Of a DNA stretch of 39,746 bases, positions 3,119 through 10,065 are shown piece by piece (positions within the stretch are counted from its first letter, which is position 1; each line of letters begins with the position of its first letter). Origin of the DNA: an uncultured Elusimicrobia bacterium (GTDB lineage: Bacteria; Elusimicrobiota; Elusimicrobia; Elusimicrobiales; UBA9959); the NCBI GenBank assembly GCA_903879915.1, contig CAIRNJ010000074.1, positions 1 to 39,746 on the forward strand. Reading direction: 5' to 3'. The notes under the pieces are model-generated. The model had not been told where the DNA came from. It saw only the letters and a program-made list of their open reading frames with translations, and did no database searches. The translations under genes and the position numbers were made by a program.

Positions 3119-3898
3119 ATGGCTTCAACTAAACGGACACCCCTTATTGCCGGTAACTGGAAGATGCATCTGAATTCCAAGGAGGCCGCCGACCTGGCCG
3201 CCGCTATTAAGAAAGGCATGGACCCCGACCTTAAGCACGAAGTTTTGCTGGCCCCCACTTTTACCAATCTGCACGCTGTTAAAGCGGTGCTCGCCGGCTC
3301 TAAAATATTCCTTTCTTCGCAGGACGTGGCGTGGGAAGAAAAAGGCGCTTTCACCGGCGCCGTTTCGCCTTCGCAGATCATTGACGCGGGCTGCACGCAC
3401 GCCATCATCGGCCACTCTGAGCGCCGCAAGATCTTCCTGGAGACCGACGAGGTCGTGAACAAGAAAGTAAAAGCCGCCATAAAGGCGAACCTCGTGCCCG
3501 TGCTGTGCATAGGTGAAACCCTCGAGGAGCGCGAAAGCCAGAGAACCTACCGCGTGCTCGAAACCCAGCTTAACGGCGCTTTCGCCGGCATCACCGCCGC
3601 CGAGGCCGTCAAAGTAGTAATAGCTTATGAGCCCGTCTGGGCCATAGGCACCGGCAAAACCGCCACGCCCGACCAGGCGCAGGACGCCCATGTTTTCGTG
3701 CGCAAGCAGATGGAGCGCATTTACGGCAAGCCCTACTCCGAAGCCGTGCGCGTGCTGTACGGCGGTTCGGTGAAAGCCGACAACGTGGACGAACTGATGG
3801 CGCAGCCCGATATCGACGGCGCGCTCGTCGGCGGGGAAAGCCTCAAGGCCGACAAGTTCCTGCGCGTGATCCATTTCCAGCCCGTGCTGGCGAAGTAA
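3119..3898 (+). CDS. tpiA: Triosephosphate isomerase
   Basis: 259 residues, close to the usual 250. It interconverts glyceraldehyde-3-phosphate and dihydroxyacetone phosphate. Catalytic signatures are intact: N13 and K15 in AGNWKMH, H99 in IIGHSERR, E171 in AYEPVWAIGTGK, the phosphate-binding loop with YGGSVK, and GALVGGESLKA. It is the first gene of the microcompartment operon, 30 bp before pduL. In SPU-type loci this enzyme would draw off the glyceraldehyde-3-phosphate made by the DeoC aldolase. No encapsulation-peptide-like extension is seen, only five or so extra residues at the N-terminus, so it may act outside the shell. It could also be the cell's only glycolytic copy, which the window cannot decide. 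Confidence 0.95.
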   Translation: MASTKRTPLIAGNWKMHLNSKEAADLAAAIKKGMDPDLKHEVLLAPTFTNLHAVKAVLAGSKIFLSSQDVAWEEKGAFTGAVSPSQIIDAGCTHAIIGHSERRKIFLETDEVVNKKVKAAIKANLVPVLCIGETLEERESQRTYRVLETQLNGAFAGITAAEAVKVVIAYEPVWAIGTGKTATPDQAQDAHVFVRKQMERIYGKPYSEAVRVLYGGSVKADNVDELMAQPDIDGALVGGESLKADKFLRVIHFQPVLAK

Positions 3899-3928: not shown

Positions 3929-4564
3929 ATGGACGAAAAGATCGTAAAAGAAATGGTTGAAGACATTAAGCTCCGCCAGGAGCGCTCAGAAAAGTCAGTG
4001 CCCATAGGCATTTCCAACCGCCACGCGCATTTCACCAAAGAAGCGTTCAAAACGCTGTTCGGCGCCGACGCGGAAGCCACGCTGCACAAGAACGTGAAGC
4101 AGCCCGGCCAGTACGCCTGCAAAGAGCTGTTCACCATAGAAGGCCCCAAGGGCTCCATTAAAGACGTGCGCATGATAGGGCCCTACAGGAGCTACAACCA
4201 GGTGGAGATCTCGGCCGCCGATGCGCGCAAACTGGGCGTGGAGCAGCCTCCCATACGCGACTCAGGCAAACTGGCCAACACCCCCGGCATAAAGCTGGTA
4301 GGCCCCAAGGGGACAGTAACGCTGCCCAGCGGCCTGATAATGTCGAAGCGCCATATCCATTTCCAGACCAAGGAAGCTGAGACCTTCAAGGTGAAGGACG
4401 GCCAGGAAGTGCGCGTGCTGTGCGGCCGCGGCACCGAACGCGAGACCATCTACGAGCGCGTGCTGTGCCGCGTTTCCGACCAGTTCGCGCTGGAGCTGCA
4501 CCTGGACGTGGACGAAGCCAACGCCGCGGGCATGAAGAACAACGACGCCGCGTTCATAGTCTGA
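3929..4564 (+). CDS. pduL: PduL-type phosphate acyltransferase
   Basis: 211 residues with two PTAC half-barrels. It transfers the acyl group of acetyl-CoA to phosphate, giving acetyl-phosphate and freeing CoA for the aldehyde dehydrogenase. Zinc-ligand motifs are both present: NRHAHF (H32, H34) and KRHIHF (H142, H144), plus H191 in ELHLDVDEANA. The first 18 residues (MDEKIVKEMVEDIKLRQE) form an amphipathic helix of the type that targets PduL to the shell lumen. Gene spacing and an AGAGGT ribosome site fit co-transcription with tpiA and the BMC-H gene. Confidence 0.94.
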   Translation: MDEKIVKEMVEDIKLRQERSEKSVPIGISNRHAHFTKEAFKTLFGADAEATLHKNVKQPGQYACKELFTIEGPKGSIKDVRMIGPYRSYNQVEISAADARKLGVEQPPIRDSGKLANTPGIKLVGPKGTVTLPSGLIMSKRHIHFQTKEAETFKVKDGQEVRVLCGRGTERETIYERVLCRVSDQFALELHLDVDEANAAGMKNNDAAFIV

Positions 4565-4604
4565 TACGCTTTTGCTGAATCTTAACTAGTTATTGGAGGA
4601 TACA

Positions 4605-4889
4605 ATGGACGCACTTGGAATGATAGAGACGAAGGGCCTTGTGGCCTGCGTGGAAGCGGCCGACGCCGCCGTAAAATCGGCCAACGTAAGGATAGTCGGC
4701 TACGAAAAGATCGGCTCGGGGCTGGTGACCATCCTTTTCAGGGGCGAAGTTGCGGCCTGCCGCGCCGCCTGCGACGCCGGCGGCGCCGCCGCGCAGAAAG
4801 TAGGGGAGCTGGTGAGCGTGCACGTGATACCGCAGCCTCACGGCGACCTGGAAGGCAAACTTCCGATCAGCGAGAACAAGAAGAAATAA
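4605..4889 (+). CDS. BMC-H hexameric shell protein (first copy)
   Basis: 94 residues, a single BMC domain. The start LGMIETKG, the GYEKIGSG pore-loop segment and the [11 protein letters not shown] strand are diagnostic of BMC-H proteins, which form the hexagonal facets of the shell with a central pore. The ATG at 4605 is preceded by GGAGG (4595-4599), so an upstream TTG in the same frame is unlikely to be used. The C-terminus is short and ends in basic residues. A second BMC-H lies at 9466, similar but not identical, so mixed facets are possible. Confidence 0.96.
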
Positions 4890-5002: not shown

Positions 5003-5308
5003 ATGCTATTCGCACGAGTAGTGGGCAATGTGGTGTGCACCCGCAAGGACGATAAACTTGTGGGGACCAAGCTTTTAATGGTGCAGCCCGTGGGGCTGGA
5101 CGACAAGCCGCGCGGCAATACGCTGGTAGCCATCGACGCCGTGGGCGCCGGTACCGGCGAACTGGTGCTGCTGGTGCAGGGCTCCAGCGCGCGCCAGACC
5201 TCGAAGACCGAGAATACGCCGGTGGACTGCACGGTGTTCGCCATAGTGGACACCATAGAGAAAGAAGGCAGGACGGTGTTCACGAAATCCACCGATAAAA
5301 TGCTGTAA
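5003..5308 (+). CDS. BMC-P pentameric vertex protein (EutN/CcmL family), first copy
   Basis: 101 residues, the usual length for the EutN/CcmL family. It starts MLFARVVGNVVCTRKDDKL, has the GTKLLMVQP strand, an AVGAGTGELVLLVQGSSAR core and an AIVDTI C-terminal strand. These proteins form pentamers that cap the vertices of the polyhedral shell. A GGAGG site lies just before the ATG, unlike the other two BMC-P genes in the operon. It is separated from BMC-H by the 7-bp repeat spacer and from the aldehyde dehydrogenase by only 11 bp. Confidence 0.95.
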   Translation: MLFARVVGNVVCTRKDDKLVGTKLLMVQPVGLDDKPRGNTLVAIDAVGAGTGELVLLVQGSSARQTSKTENTPVDCTVFAIVDTIEKEGRTVFTKSTDKML

Positions 5309-5319
5309 GCGGAGTTCAT

Positions 5320-6726
5320 ATGCCCATCAGCGAACAAGACTTGCAGAAAATAGTGGCCGAGGTGGTACGCAACCTGGCGCCGGGCGCCGCCTCCGCCGTT
5401 ACCGGCGGGCCGGTGTTCGACAGCGTGGACGACGCCGTGAGCGCCGCCAAGCTCGCCCAGCCCGCTTTCCAGGAACTGGGCCTGGTGGCGCGCGAAAAAA
5501 TAATAGCCGCCATCCGCGAAGTTTCCCGCGCCAACGCCCGCCGCTGGGCCGAAATGGCCGTGGCCGAGACCGGCATGGGCCGCGTGGAAGATAAAGTTAT
5601 CAAGAACATGGTGTGCATAGACAACACCCCCGGCGTGGAGGACCTGCGCGCCGTGTCCTACACCGGCGACAAAGGCCTGACCCTGGTGGAATACGCGCCT
5701 TTCGGCGTGGTGGCCGCCATCACCCCTTCCACCAACGCCGTGGCCACCATCATCAGCAACGCCATAGGAATTTTATCCGCGGGCAACGCGGTAGTGTTCT
5801 CGCCGCACCCGGCCGCCAAGGGCTGCGTGGCCGACGCCGTGCGCATCCTTAACAAAGCCATAGTGGACGCCGGCGGCCCGGCCAACATCGTGTGCGCCAT
5901 GGGCAAGCCCACGCAGGAAGTTACCAAGCAGCTGCTGTCCCACCCGGACACCAACATGAACATAGTCACCGGCGGCCCGGCCATAGTAAAAGTGGCCATG
6001 ACGTCGGGCAAGCCCTGCAAGACCATAGCGGCCGGCCCCGGCAACCCGCCCATAGTGGTGGACGAGACCGCCGTGTTCCCGGACTGCGCGCAGGAAATAA
6101 TTTACGGCTGCGGCTTCGACAACAACGTGCTGTGCATAGCCGAGAAAGAAGTCATCGTGGTGGAAGCCGCCCGCGCGCGCTTCCTGGCCGCCATGCGCGC
6201 CGACGCGCGGGCCTACGAGCTGAGCGGTGCGCAGATGGACCAGCTTTCTAAGCTGGCCATACTCGAGCCCGGCCGCGAGCCCAAAGTGAACCGCGATTTC
6301 ATCGGCAAGAACCCGTCGGTGATAGCCAAAGCCATCGGGCTGAACCTGTCCGACGATATCCGCGTGCTGTGGGCGGAAGTGCCCAACGACCACCCTTTCG
6401 TGGTTAGCGAACAGCTCATGCCGGTGCTGCCGGTCACTTTCAGCAAAGACATAGACTCGGCCATAGAGCTGGCGCGCTTCGTTGAGGGGGAGAACCACCA
6501 CTCGGCGGGCATGTACTCCACCAACATCAAGAACATGACCAAAATGGGCCGCCGCATGGCCTGCTCCATCTTCGTGAAGAACGGCTGCACGCTGCACGGG
6601 CTGGGCCTGGGCGAGGGCTACGCCTCCATGTCCATCGGCACCCCCACGGGCGACGGCATAACCAAGACCAGCCATTTCGCGCGGCCGCTGCAGTGCAGCG
6701 TAGTCGGTGACCTCAGGATAGCGTAA
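5320..6726 (+). CDS. CoA-acylating aldehyde dehydrogenase, microcompartment type (PduP/EutE-like)
   Basis: 468 residues, the normal length. It oxidises an aldehyde (here presumably acetaldehyde) with NAD+ and CoA to the acyl-CoA. The catalytic Cys is C272 in DNNVLCIAEKE. ITPSTNAVATI and the GGP/AGPGNPP glycine-rich segments fit the family. Residues 3-20 (ISEQDLQKIVAEVVRNLA) form an amphipathic helix followed by a Gly/Ala/Pro-rich linker, a classic encapsulation peptide very like that of the DeoC in the same operon. It sits between a vertex and a trimer shell gene. PduP versus EutE substrate preference cannot be read, but an aldolase partner points to acetaldehyde. Confidence 0.94.
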   Translation: MPISEQDLQKIVAEVVRNLAPGAASAVTGGPVFDSVDDAVSAAKLAQPAFQELGLVAREKIIAAIREVSRANARRWAEMAVAETGMGRVEDKVIKNMVCIDNTPGVEDLRAVSYTGDKGLTLVEYAPFGVVAAITPSTNAVATIISNAIGILSAGNAVVFSPHPAAKGCVADAVRILNKAIVDAGGPANIVCAMGKPTQEVTKQLLSHPDTNMNIVTGGPAIVKVAMTSGKPCKTIAAGPGNPPIVVDETAVFPDCAQEIIYGCGFDNNVLCIAEKEVIVVEAARARFLAAMRADARAYELSGAQMDQLSKLAILEPGREPKVNRDFIGKNPSVIAKAIGLNLSDDIRVLWAEVPNDHPFVVSEQLMPVLPVTFSKDIDSAIELARFVEGENHHSAGMYSTNIKNMTKMGRRMACSIFVKNGCTLHGLGLGEGYASMSIGTPTGDGITKTSHFARPLQCSVVGDLRIA

Positions 6727-6735
6727 GGAGAATTT

Positions 6736-7284
6736 ATGCTTTCAAATATAGCGCTCGGACTTGTGGAACTTTCTTCGATAGCCAAAGGCATCGAAACCCT
6801 GGACGCCATGTGCAAGGCGGCCGGGATAAAGCCGGAAGTGCACCAAGCTATTTCCAAGGGGAAATATATCATCGTGATCTCCGGGCCCATAGGGGAAGTT
6901 GAATCCGCGCTGGCCAGGGGAGCGGACATCGGCGGCAATGCCATTATCGCGCGCCACATCATACGCAACGCGCATACCGGCGCGCTGGCCGCCCTGAACA
7001 AAAAAGTGAAGGCCGACAAGATAGAGGCCGTGGGCATTGTGGAGACCAAAGAGGCCCTGCCCGCGCTGTTCGCAGCCGACGCGGCCGCCAAAGCCGCCTT
7101 CGTACACGTGTCCGAAGTGAACACCGGCAAAGGCATAGGCGGCAAGGGTTACTTCACCGTGGTGGGCGAGCCGGGCGCCGTGCGCACCGCCGTTACCGCC
7201 GGCGTGAAAGCCATAGGCGAGGACGCCGTAGTGAGCCGCATAGTTATCCCCAACGCGCACCATCACATAGGCGCGGCGATATAA
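6736..7284 (+). CDS. BMC-T trimeric shell protein (tandem BMC domains)
   Basis: 182 residues made of two BMC domains (about 1-90 and 95-182). The second begins AVGIVETKEALPAL, the same motif as the BMC-H proteins, and holds GYFTVVGEPGAV and RIVIPNAH. Such proteins form pseudohexameric trimers with larger, sometimes gated pores for metabolites or cofactors. The only Cys is C26 and no Cys sits at the expected pore position, so a PduT-like iron-sulfur cluster is not supported. AAGGAG overlaps the end of the dehydrogenase gene, showing tight coupling. Confidence 0.94.
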   Translation: MLSNIALGLVELSSIAKGIETLDAMCKAAGIKPEVHQAISKGKYIIVISGPIGEVESALARGADIGGNAIIARHIIRNAHTGALAALNKKVKADKIEAVGIVETKEALPALFAADAAAKAAFVHVSEVNTGKGIGGKGYFTVVGEPGAVRTAVTAGVKAIGEDAVVSRIVIPNAHHHIGAAI

Positions 7285-7303: not shown

Positions 7304-7750
7304 ATGAGACTAGTAATAGGCGCCGACCACGCGGGTTTTGAAGCCAAGGAAAAGCTGAAGAAATTCCTCCAGGGCCTGGGCCACGACGTGGCCGATTTCG
7401 GCTGCTACTCGCTGGAGCCGGTGGATTTCCCCGACATTGCCCTGCTGGTCAGCGAGGCCGTGCGCAAGAAAGAATTCGACCGCGCCGTGCTGGTGGACGG
7501 CTTCAACGGTGCCATGCCGCTGGCCGCCAATAAAGTGCACGGCATCCGCGCCGTGGCCGCCTACGACACTATTTCCGCCCGCTTCGCCGCCGCCCACGAG
7601 GACTGCAACGTGCTGTGCCTGGGCGGCAAAACGCACGGCGAACTGGCCCTGCAGGAAATGATCAAGGTCTGGCTGAACACCCCTTTCGAAGGCGGTAAGT
7701 ACCAGAAGCGGCTGGATAAAATAACCGCCATAGAAGAGCGCTGCTGTTAA
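7304..7750 (+). CDS. RpiB/LacAB-family sugar-phosphate isomerase homologue with altered active site
   Basis: 148 residues, typical RpiB length. The fold signature is clear: MRLVIGADHAGFEAKEKL, AANKVHGIRAV, HEDCNVLCLGGK and a C-terminal GGKYQKRLDKI. The catalytic loop differs: the canonical C-G-T-G-I-G-M-S-I-A-A-N-K reads D-G-F-N-G-A-M-P-L-A-A-N-K, so the base Cys is Asp (D65) and the anion-hole residues change. A phosphate-binding Arg near the C-terminus appears as Lys (K132). H9 and H98 are kept. Ribose-5-phosphate isomerase activity is therefore doubtful. It may act on a different sugar phosphate or with a different base. Its place between shell genes links it to the compartment. The family is certain, the reaction is not. 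Confidence 0.85.
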   Translation: MRLVIGADHAGFEAKEKLKKFLQGLGHDVADFGCYSLEPVDFPDIALLVSEAVRKKEFDRAVLVDGFNGAMPLAANKVHGIRAVAAYDTISARFAAAHEDCNVLCLGGKTHGELALQEMIKVWLNTPFEGGKYQKRLDKITAIEERCC

Positions 7751-7820: not shown

Positions 7821-8120
7821 ATGAAACAGGCAAAGGTCATCGGCCGGGTGTTCTGCTCACGCCAGTGCTGCGGCATGGAGAGCAAGACCCTGCTGCTTAT
7901 ACAGCCTTTGGACTGGGAAACGGATAAGCCGGCCGGCGACCCGCTGGTGGCCGGGGATACCGTGGGAGCCGGCGCGGGAGAAACCGTATTCTTCGTGGCC
8001 TCCCGGGAAGCCATCCTGGCCTTCGAAGGCTGGGAGGGCGAGACGGCCGTCGGCACGCCGCTGCCGCCGGTGGACGCCGCGATAGTAGGTATAATCGACG
8101 GCAAGAATTTAAAAGTTTGA
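7821..8120 (+). CDS. BMC-P pentameric vertex protein (EutN/CcmL family), second copy
   Basis: 99 residues. It opens QAKVIGRVFCSRQCCGM, then TLLLIQPLDW, AGDTVGAGAGETVFFVASREA and a C-terminal AAIVGIIDGKNLKV, all in register with the EutN/CcmL fold. The hairpin after the first strand carries three Cys (C12, C16, C17), absent in the other two copies. Only a weak AAGAG ribosome site lies before the ATG, and a 7-bp repeat cluster fills the upstream gap, so low translation is likely. This would fit a protein needed at about 60 chains per shell. Confidence 0.92.
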   Translation: MKQAKVIGRVFCSRQCCGMESKTLLLIQPLDWETDKPAGDPLVAGDTVGAGAGETVFFVASREAILAFEGWEGETAVGTPLPPVDAAIVGIIDGKNLKV

Positions 8121-8179: not shown

Positions 8180-8473
8180 ATGTTCATAGCGAAAGTTATC
8201 GGTAACGTCTGGGCCACGCGCAAGCACGCGGGGCTGAAGAACGCCACGCTGCTGCTGGTGAAGGCCGTTGACCCGCTGGACAAGAACAAGCTGACGGGCG
8301 AGGCCACGCTGGCGCTGGACGGCCACCAGGGCGCGGGCGTGGGCGACACGGTTTTGATAGTGGACGAAGGCGGTTCGGCGCGGAAGATCTTGAAGAATTC
8401 CAAAGCCCCGGTACGCACGGTGATAGCCGGCATTGTGGATACGGTCCACATAACAGGAGAGAAAACCATATGA
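8180..8473 (+). CDS. BMC-P pentameric vertex protein (EutN/CcmL family), third copy
   Basis: 97 residues. Signature segments are [51 protein letters not shown] and [11 protein letters not shown]. It resembles the first copy (5003) more than the second. The ribosome site before the ATG is poor, and the gap upstream holds 7-bp repeats. Its stop overlaps the DeoC start (ATGA at 8470-8473), and the DeoC ribosome site lies inside its last codons, so translation of DeoC is probably coupled to this gene. Confidence 0.94.
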
Positions 8474-9450
8474 ACGACGAAGATATTAAAAAAATAGCGG
8501 CCGAAGTGGCCCGGATAATGAAAGGCGGCGGCCAGCAGGCCCCCAGGCAGACGCTGGGCGATTCCGTGAACATCGGCTCCGCCGGCAAGGTTTTCCAGCA
8601 CCCGCTGGTGAACAACCAGGGCGCGGCCCCGGCTAAACCCTGCTCCGCGCAGGGCGACTGTCGGCTCGAGGAGAACACCTGCAGTTCCTCCTGCCAGAAA
8701 TGCAACCCGCTCTCCAATTATACGGCCCAGCAGGTGAAGGCCAGCGCCGACCGCGTGAGCTTCTGCAACCCCAACGAGGCCAGCACCTCCATTGCCGGCA
8801 TGATAGACCATACCCTGCTCAAGGCCAACGCCACGCAGGAAGAGATAGGCAAATTGTGCGAGGAAGCCCGTAAATACCGCTTCGCTTCCGTCTGCGTGAA
8901 CCCCGGCTACGTGGCCATGTCCGCCCGGCTGCTCAGGGGCAGCTGCGTTAAGGTTTGCACCGTTATCGGCTTCCCGCTGGGTTCGACCACCCCCACGGTA
9001 AAAGCTATAGAAGCCCGCGACGCCATAGCCAACGGCGCTGAGGAAATAGACATGGTGATAAATATCGGCGCCTTGAAATCCGGCAACGACCAGCTGGTGC
9101 TGGACGATATAAAGGCCGTGCGCGAAGCCACCCGCGGCAAACTGCTTAAAGTAATTCTTGAAACTTCGTACCTGACCAAGGACGAAAAGATCCGCGCCTG
9201 CAAAATGTCCAAGCTGGCGCAGGCCGACTTCGTGAAAACCTCCACCGGCTTCGGTTCCGGCGGCGCCACGCCGGAAGACGTGGCCCTGATGCGCGAGACC
9301 GTGGGCCCCGAGATGGGCGTGAAAGCCTCCGGCGGCATCAAGGACGCCAAGATAGCCGAGGCCATGATAAAGGCCGGCGCCAACCGCCTGGGCACCAGCG
9401 CGAGCATCGCCATAATTTCCGGCGGCGAGGCCGCGAAGGGGCAGTACTAA
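8470..9450 (+). CDS. deoC: Deoxyribose-5-phosphate aldolase with encapsulation peptide and Cys-rich linker
   Basis: 326 residues, about 105 more than a standard DeoC. It cleaves 2-deoxyribose-5-phosphate to glyceraldehyde-3-phosphate and acetaldehyde by a Schiff base. The catalytic domain (about 108-320) keeps D194 in [14 protein letters not shown], Schiff-base K256 in [12 protein letters not shown] and K285 in GVKASGGI. Residues 1-20 are an amphipathic helix ([13 protein letters not shown] core) followed by Gly/Gln/Pro, an encapsulation peptide matching that of the aldehyde dehydrogenase. Residues 58-78 hold five Cys (58, 64, 71, 75, 78), ending C-x3-C-x2-C, which could bind zinc or an iron-sulfur cluster or form disulfides. 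It is the signature enzyme of the locus. The role of the Cys region is unknown. Confidence 0.95.
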
Positions 9451-9465
9451 GTATAAGGAGCGAAT

Positions 9466-9762
9466 ATGTCAGAACCCAAAGAAGCGCTTGGAATGATAGA
9501 GACCAAAGGTTTCATAGGCATGATAGAAGCCTCTGACGCCATGAGCAAGGCCGCCAAGGTGCGCCTGCTCGGCTACGAGAAGATAGGCTCGGGCTACGTC
9601 ACCACGCTGTGCGTGGGCGAAGTGGGCGCCGTGCGGGCCGCCGTGGAAGCCGGCGCCGCCGCCGCGCAGAAGGCCGGGGAGCTGGTGGGGATGCACGTGA
9701 TACCGCGCCCCTCCGACGACCTGGACAAATATCTGGCCAAGATCTCGGTGAAAGTAAGTTAA
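9466..9762 (+). CDS. BMC-H hexameric shell protein (second copy)
   Basis: 98 residues, one BMC domain: [19 protein letters not shown], then [27 protein letters not shown] and [13 protein letters not shown]. It differs from the first copy in the segment after the pore loop ([11 protein letters not shown] versus [11 protein letters not shown]), which adds a Cys and removes an Arg, so mixed facets with distinct surface properties are possible. An AAGGAG site precedes the ATG. It closes the run of shell genes and is followed by a hairpin. Confidence 0.96.
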
Positions 9763-9819: not shown

Positions 9820-10065
9820 ATGCTCACCAAAGGCGCGATAGAGGACCTGATAGCGGAGCACCTTTTCCGGGGAAAACCGGGAGGGGCCGCGCCTGCGCCT
9901 AAGAAGGTTCCGGAGCTTGAACACAGGGTGTTCCTCAGCGATTTCGAGCTCAGGGCAATGATAACGGCGGGGGGCAGGTCAATAAAAGTCCCGGCCAACG
10001 CCATAATCAGCCCGTTGGCGCTGGATTGGATAGAGTATAACGGCATAGAGCTGATCCGCGGATAA
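9820..10065 (+). CDS. Small microcompartment-associated protein: helix plus EutQ/EutT-N-like segment
   Basis: 81 residues, function unknown. Residues 2-17 (LTKGAIEDLIAEHLFR) form a short amphipathic helix followed by a Gly/Ala/Pro-rich linker (18-31), the layout of an encapsulation peptide. Residues 36-79 read R-V-F-L-S-D-F-E-L-R, then a Gly-Gly turn, I-K-V-P, and A-I-I-S-P-L-A-x-D with N-G-I-E-L. This resembles, from memory, the N-terminal segment of EutQ and EutT (pattern hydrophobic-T-x-x-D-I-R ... I-I-T-P-x-A-R). No cupin or adenosyltransferase domain follows. It is the last gene of the operon, lacks a visible ribosome site and follows a hairpin. A scaffold or shell-cargo adaptor is a guess. 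Confidence 0.7.
   Translation: MLTKGAIEDLIAEHLFRGKPGGAAPAPKKVPELEHRVFLSDFELRAMITAGGRSIKVPANAIISPLALDWIEYNGIELIRG

Follow-up and report, generated by a model that had tools for sequence, protein, structure and literature searches.

Results

Gene content of the SPU microcompartment locus

The window, by which we mean the whole 39,746-nucleotide stretch of Elusimicrobia DNA that was analyzed, carries a microcompartment (BMC) locus of the sugar-phosphate utilisation (SPU) type, and all of the genes described here for the locus lie on the plus strand. The genes located 5' of the gene under study encode a triosephosphate isomerase (TIM; 3119..3898; PF00121), a PduL-type phosphate propanoyltransferase (3929..4564; PF06130, NF011652), a BMC-H shell protein (4593..4889; PF00936), a BMC-P shell vertex protein (5003..5308; PF03319), an acylating aldehyde dehydrogenase (AldDH) with an N-terminal encapsulation-peptide-like helix (5320..6726; NF011927, 564 bits) and a BMC-T shell protein whose tandem BMC domains match PF00936 in two stretches (6736..7284). 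They are followed by the gene of interest, which encodes a 148-aa homologue of ribose-5-phosphate (R5P) isomerase B, RpiB (7304..7750; Pfam PF02502, LacAB_rpiB, E=3e-43). Directly downstream of it lies a second BMC-P gene (7821..8120; PF03319), and then an open reading frame for a third, BMC-P-like vertex protein (8180..8473), homologues of which come after the second BMC-P gene in Elusimicrobiota SPU loci. The deoC gene (8470..9450) encodes an aldolase (DeoC, or DERA) with an N-terminal encapsulation-peptide-like helix and a Cys-rich linker; it scored 293 bits against the TIGR00126 deoC equivalog, over the cut-off, and both lysine motifs, VKTSTGF and VKASGG, are present. An open reading frame for a second BMC-H protein (9466..9762), with homologues conserved in the loci, and a gene for an 81-aa protein (9820..10065) complete the set.

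The DeoC-type aldolase, the PF02502 protein, the BMC shell genes and the AldDH together identify the locus as SPU. DeoC, an RpiB-type protein, acylating AldDH, PduL, TIM and BMC-H/T/P proteins are all shared with the SPU loci described in two BMC catalogues (Axen 2014, PMC4207490; Sutter 2021, PMC8217296). A second rpiB gene of the same genome lies on another contig and is of the ordinary type, with the catalytic Cys in the loop VCGSGVGACVAANK. The genome also holds a deoB-like gene (contig C109), the score of which is under the family cut-off. Upstream of the SPU locus (1584-2951) we noted by eye an AbrB-like/PIN-like pair and a minus-strand AbiEi-like gene, and the related loci L117, L119, L139, L140 and L142 have an extra BMC-T gene upstream of TIM.

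An RpiB homologue with Asp at the catalytic Cys site

The protein belongs to the RpiB/LacAB superfamily, with a score of 147.5 bits against PF02502 (cut-off 24.7) over profile positions 2-138 of 138. Its structure was predicted with a pLDDT of 95 and a pTM of 0.90, and the best Foldseek match of the model was C. thermocellum RpiB (3he8; TM 0.98, rmsd 0.7), with which the protein is 38% identical. The score passed the cut-off of the subfamily PRK05571 and, at 129.9 bits, fell short of the 138.65 bits required by the NCBIfam TIGR01120 rpiB equivalog. We rejected membership in LacA, LacB or EryI as the scores were far under the cut-offs, at most 85.8 bits for the LacA/LacB equivalog models (cut-off 164) and 63 bits for the EryI model NF051858 (cut-off 240). 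EryI, the D-erythrulose-4-phosphate isomerase, is likewise an RpiB homologue, acting on another sugar phosphate. LacA and LacB were further compared through their description in the LacAB paper (PMC3755991). LacAB galactose-6-phosphate isomerase is of the same superfamily and is made of two unlike subunits, with the catalytic Cys65 retained in LacB. The window lineage, by contrast, has a single Asp-type gene, and adjacent unlike copies occur only in other Elusimicrobiota lineages.

We aligned the window protein with six solved RpiBs (3he8, 3ph3, 1o1x, 6fxs, 6fxl and 1nn4). All six have C-G-T/S-G at the loop, and their catalytic Cys stands opposite Asp65 of the window protein (codon 7496-7498), where the loop D65-K77 (7496..7534) reads DGFNGAMPLAANK in place of CGTGIGMSIAANK. 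A sequence-only reading of the window had placed a replaced Cys loop at 7490-7545 and had named H9 and H98 as retained; the alignment bore out both statements, and its doubt that the protein carries out ordinary R5P isomerisation stands as well. Compared with RpiB (PF02502; C. thermocellum 3he8, E. coli 1nn4/2vvr), the protein shares the fold, the length, the AANK end of the loop and the canonical residues Asp8, His9, His98 and Arg136, and differs by Asp for Cys, Phe for the usual Thr/Ser at position 67, a rearranged glycine loop and the SPU shell and DERA context. His98 (7595..7597) is the conserved ring-opening histidine, a role taken from H96/H99 of LacAB and E. coli RpiB (PMC3755991). Neither of the two bases known for RpiB is present: Asp65 occupies the Cys site, and Met71 or Pro72 lies, by approximate placement, near the position of Glu75, the base of M. 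tuberculosis RpiB (2vvo, 1usl). The latter enzyme resembles the Asp-type in having a carboxylate instead of Cys, but this carboxylate sits elsewhere in the loop, and the reaction of the enzyme is R5P isomerisation (PMC3755991). We found no report of the Asp loop in a proven RpiB.

Distribution of the Asp-type among BMC loci

Among the 341 Elusimicrobiota genomes searched, matches split sharply into a SPU type of at least 51% identity and ordinary RpiBs of about 40-46%. Every Elusimicrobiota SPU locus examined in which the RpiB was readable had an Asp-type copy. The scan of GTDB contigs gave the same picture for Bacillota and other lineages, where the SPU loci all had Asp, with loops such as DGAGVGSAIAANK, and the non-BMC RpiBs all had Cys. 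To avoid bias, BMC loci of Chloroflexota, KSB1 and Acidobacteriota were fetched via the shell protein PF03319 regardless of RpiB; again the RpiBs beside shell genes were all Asp-type, including that of a Planctomycetota locus (L256/L427). The alignment with RpiBs of other SPU loci that had been proposed from the sequence thus yielded an Asp-type copy in every SPU locus with a detected RpiB, and the Asp swap occurred in at least six phyla, so it is no peculiarity of this species.

After removal of identical sequences, the BMC-linked RpiBs (n=124) comprised 110 Asp and 14 Cys copies, and the unlinked RpiBs (n=103), some of which were seen with a 1.5-kb flank only, comprised 102 Cys copies and one Asp copy. 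The sole unlinked Asp copy (L230/L423) lies beside deoC and AldDH, near a contig end. These counts agree with the earlier suggestion that the change is specific to the compartment. They refer to sequences and not to independent events, since a tree built from 137 columns with the loop left out showed two Asp groups and needed two changes. Separate origins in Elusimicrobiota and in the other phyla were considered, but a single Asp clade was not rejected (p-AU 0.88, the tree constrained to one clade being the better one), and one origin of the Asp-type is possible. The striking point is the retention of Asp over deep divergence.

Each of the 14 BMC-linked Cys copies was found in tandem with an Asp copy. 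Such pairs are seen in the Elusimicrobiota SPU loci L092-L102, L109, L126 and L138. They raise the possibility that the original form was a LacAB-like heteromer, to whose composite site the Asp-type and the tandem Cys-type each contributed, and that the window lineage is derived and has lost the partner. The pairs occur in 19 of 19 loci with a BMC-linked Cys copy (some of these loci are copies of one another), LacA and LacB do form such a composite site (PMC3755991), and the Cys partners in L096-L099 are without the Arg113 region (ICF-SED). Moreover, Thr67 is kept in 10 of the 14 Asp copies with a partner, compared to one of the 96 without. However, most SPU loci have no partner, including those of all other phyla examined, and the partners do not group together in the tree, a pattern that repeated recruitment or fast evolution could produce. 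We regard a heteromeric origin as very improbable.

Residue signature of the Asp-types

Asp65 and His98 were present in all 110 non-identical BMC-linked Asp-types, and D8, H9 and the phosphate residue R136 were conserved throughout (positions 8 and 9 were unreadable in one sequence). The invariance of Asp65 in 110 homologues from several phyla argues that the swap is neither chance nor a sequencing error. A further difference is at position 67, where Thr/Ser was found in 101 of the 102 unlinked Cys-types but in only 11 of the 110 Asp-types, ten of these 11 having a tandem Cys partner; the remaining 99 have Phe, Ala, Val or Ile. In LacAB, O1 of the substrate is held by Cys65 and the Gly70 amide, Thr67 contacts O2 and is the proposed shuttle of the enediolate proton, the ring is opened by His96', and D8 and H9 are essential (PMC3755991). 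Given the contact of Cys65 with O1, an Asp at position 65 would lie near the anomeric oxygen. The pattern in the Asp-types, which lose the O2 contact and keep the ring-opening and phosphate residues, is the one predicted for a 2-deoxy substrate, which has no O2.

Two further candidates for the signature were dropped. The window protein has K109, K132 and Y133 at phosphate-binding positions (7628..7702) where most RpiBs have Arg, Arg and His, and this pattern is lineage-specific. The Arg to Lys change pointed out in the sequence-only reading is indeed there as K132, but 69 of the 110 Asp-types have Arg at this position, which puts the change outside the core signature. Likewise, the change of Asn99 to Glu/Asp does not separate the types, as Asp is found at this position in 34 of the 102 unlinked Cys-types as well, and Asn persists in 30 of the 110 Asp-types. 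In Asp-types of Chloroflexota and KSB1 (L334, L344, L347-L351 and L356-L365) the Arg113 equivalent is lost, with LGAG or LGGG replacing LGxR.

On these grounds the PF02502 protein almost certainly represents a distinct RpiB subfamily that has Asp permanently in place of the catalytic Cys and provides SPU microcompartments with their signature enzyme.

Conservation and selection within the genus

Both the SPU copy and a canonical RpiB were present in 30 of 32 genomes of the genus; the remaining two genomes had one each, and one of the two is 84% complete. The loop was invariant in the 31 SPU copies and the Cys was invariant in the 30 canonical copies. Mean amino-acid identity was 92% among SPU copies and 78% among canonical copies, and median dN/dS was 0.073 and 0.190, respectively. 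Strong purifying selection thus acts on the Asp-type protein, which is more constrained than the housekeeping RpiB. We rejected a sequencing error, a pseudogene or chance as the source of the altered loop, as the loop was the same in all 31 SPU copies and dN/dS was 0.07.

Association with DERA and encapsulation

All five deoC-bearing KSB1 loci (L356, L358, L359, L363 and L365) encode a single protein of about 470 aa in which an Asp-type RpiB is joined through an encapsulation-peptide-like helix to DERA. An aldolase-isomerase fusion is mentioned for Marinimicrobia in the earlier catalogue (Axen 2014, PMC4207490). The RpiBs of L196 and L208 end in an encapsulation-peptide-like helix followed by a domain resembling the 81-aa protein of the window, and the RpiB of L181 has a longer C-terminal extension ending in the same domain type. 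The resemblance of the 81-aa protein to the extensions in these three loci came from a profile match in a three-sequence search (E=6e-6 to 5e-5); the 81-aa protein also has a weak TIGR02536 match, as does the L208 RpiB. Possibly it serves RpiB as an adaptor for encapsulation. The KSB1 fusion and the C-terminal encapsulation-peptide-like helices would place the Asp-type RpiB inside the compartment, beside DERA.

The loss of the catalytic Cys raises the question of whether the protein has little or no catalytic activity and serves as a sugar-phosphate-binding, regulatory or scaffolding subunit of the compartment. The C-terminal extensions in L181, L196 and L208, with the encapsulation-peptide-like helix in two of them, would suit such a role, and catalytically defunct copies are described for other BMCs (GRM1 AldDH) in the same catalogue (PMC4207490). 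Against this, residue 65 has stayed Asp across at least six phyla with no drift, D8, H9, H98 and R136 are conserved, dN/dS is 0.07, and a mere binder need not have swapped Cys for Asp and never for anything else. A non-catalytic role is improbable.

Proposed function of the Asp-type protein

The sequence-only reading had held that a second substrate is implied. This was not upheld: the KSB1 fusion, the constant deoC neighbourhood and the hydrophobic residue at position 67 fit 2-deoxyribose-5-phosphate (dR5P) itself as the substrate, if the reaction is ring opening and not C1-C2 isomerisation. As reported, dR5P is 99.8% furanose, and DERA needs the open chain and is without a catalytic ring-opening His (PMC5975929). 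Our leading reading, which we put forward tentatively, is that the SPU Asp-type RpiB is a dR5P ring-opening enzyme (an aldose anomerase) rather than an aldose-ketose isomerase. In the proposed mechanism the substrate would be that of DERA, 2-deoxyribose-5-phosphate. The ring oxygen would receive a proton from His98 of one subunit, and Asp65 of the other subunit, in the presumed subunit arrangement, would deprotonate the anomeric hydroxyl (O1-H). Galactose mutarotase has a Glu/His pair similar to Asp65/His98. The open-chain aldehyde, the only form that DERA can use, would then be handed on to this enzyme, whether fused or co-encapsulated.

The strongest argument against ring opening is that phosphorylated pentoses open fast on their own (40-100 /s for R5P), a step not expected to limit DERA (PMC5975929), so that a dedicated ring-opener may be unnecessary. 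We estimated the demand from the DERA kcat/KM of 1.3e5 /M/s and an assumed enzyme concentration of about 1 mM in a crowded lumen; the resulting value of about 130 /s is comparable to the spontaneous opening of R5P. Also counting against ring opening are the naming of the SPU PF02502 enzyme as R5P isomerase in the BMC catalogues (PMC8217296) and the retention of Thr67 in the ten Asp copies with a tandem Cys partner.

Asp65 might instead be an alternative general base, the enzyme still being an aldose-ketose isomerase of R5P or of another sugar phosphate; in the R5P version, pentose phosphates derived from both RNA and DNA would be handled. Glu75 of the M. tuberculosis enzyme indicates that a carboxylate can be the isomerase base in the RpiB fold (PMC3755991), which also weighs against ring opening. 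The protein is like RpiB in its fold (TM 0.98 to 3he8) and at most other positions of the active site, promiscuity of RpiB is cited in the earlier catalogue (PMC4207490), and the Asp-types of L167, L365 and L208 pass the TIGR01120 rpiB equivalog cut-off. On the other hand, Thr67 as the proposed O1/O2 enediolate proton shuttle is lost in 99 of the 110 Asp-types and kept in 101 of the 102 Cys-types, fusion to DERA brings an R5P isomerase no obvious gain, and a separate Cys-type RpiB is found in the window genome and in nearly all genomes of its genus. An isomerase with Asp65 as base is, in our assessment, rather doubtful, and the little probability that is left falls to other chemistry.

Returning to ring opening, the PF02502 enzyme of SPU loci could, guardedly put, be no R5P isomerase but a dR5P ring-opener feeding DERA, an activity new to the superfamily and spread over at least six phyla. 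The accepted name, ribose-5-phosphate isomerase, is probably wrong for the SPU enzyme, given the Asp swap in every checkable SPU compartment of at least six phyla. The catalogues already describe SPU loci with their RpiB-like gene (PMC4207490, PMC8217296); what may be novel is the activity. In main-text passages of both catalogues the PF02502 member is given as R5P isomerase, and the missing catalytic Cys is not mentioned there; neither the Asp-type RpiB of SPU loci nor its missing Cys was found reported in a search of open-licence papers. Automatic annotation now passes some Asp-types, those of L167, L365 and L208, as ribose 5-phosphate isomerase B. Should the isomerase base be absent from this signature enzyme throughout, an entire class of organelles is misannotated, and the real step, perhaps the making of a reactive open-chain sugar inside the shell, becomes open to direct testing on a single small soluble protein or on the RpiB-DERA fusion that occurs in nature.

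The Cys-rich linker of DeoC

In the N-terminal region of the window DeoC (8470-8800), the linker that connects the encapsulation-peptide-like helix to the aldolase domain is rich in Cys. A Cys-rich motif, such as CxxCGxC or CPHC, recurs in the SPU DERAs of Elusimicrobiota, Bacillota, KSB1 and other lineages and is missing in some; a metal or Fe-S site in the linker is possible.
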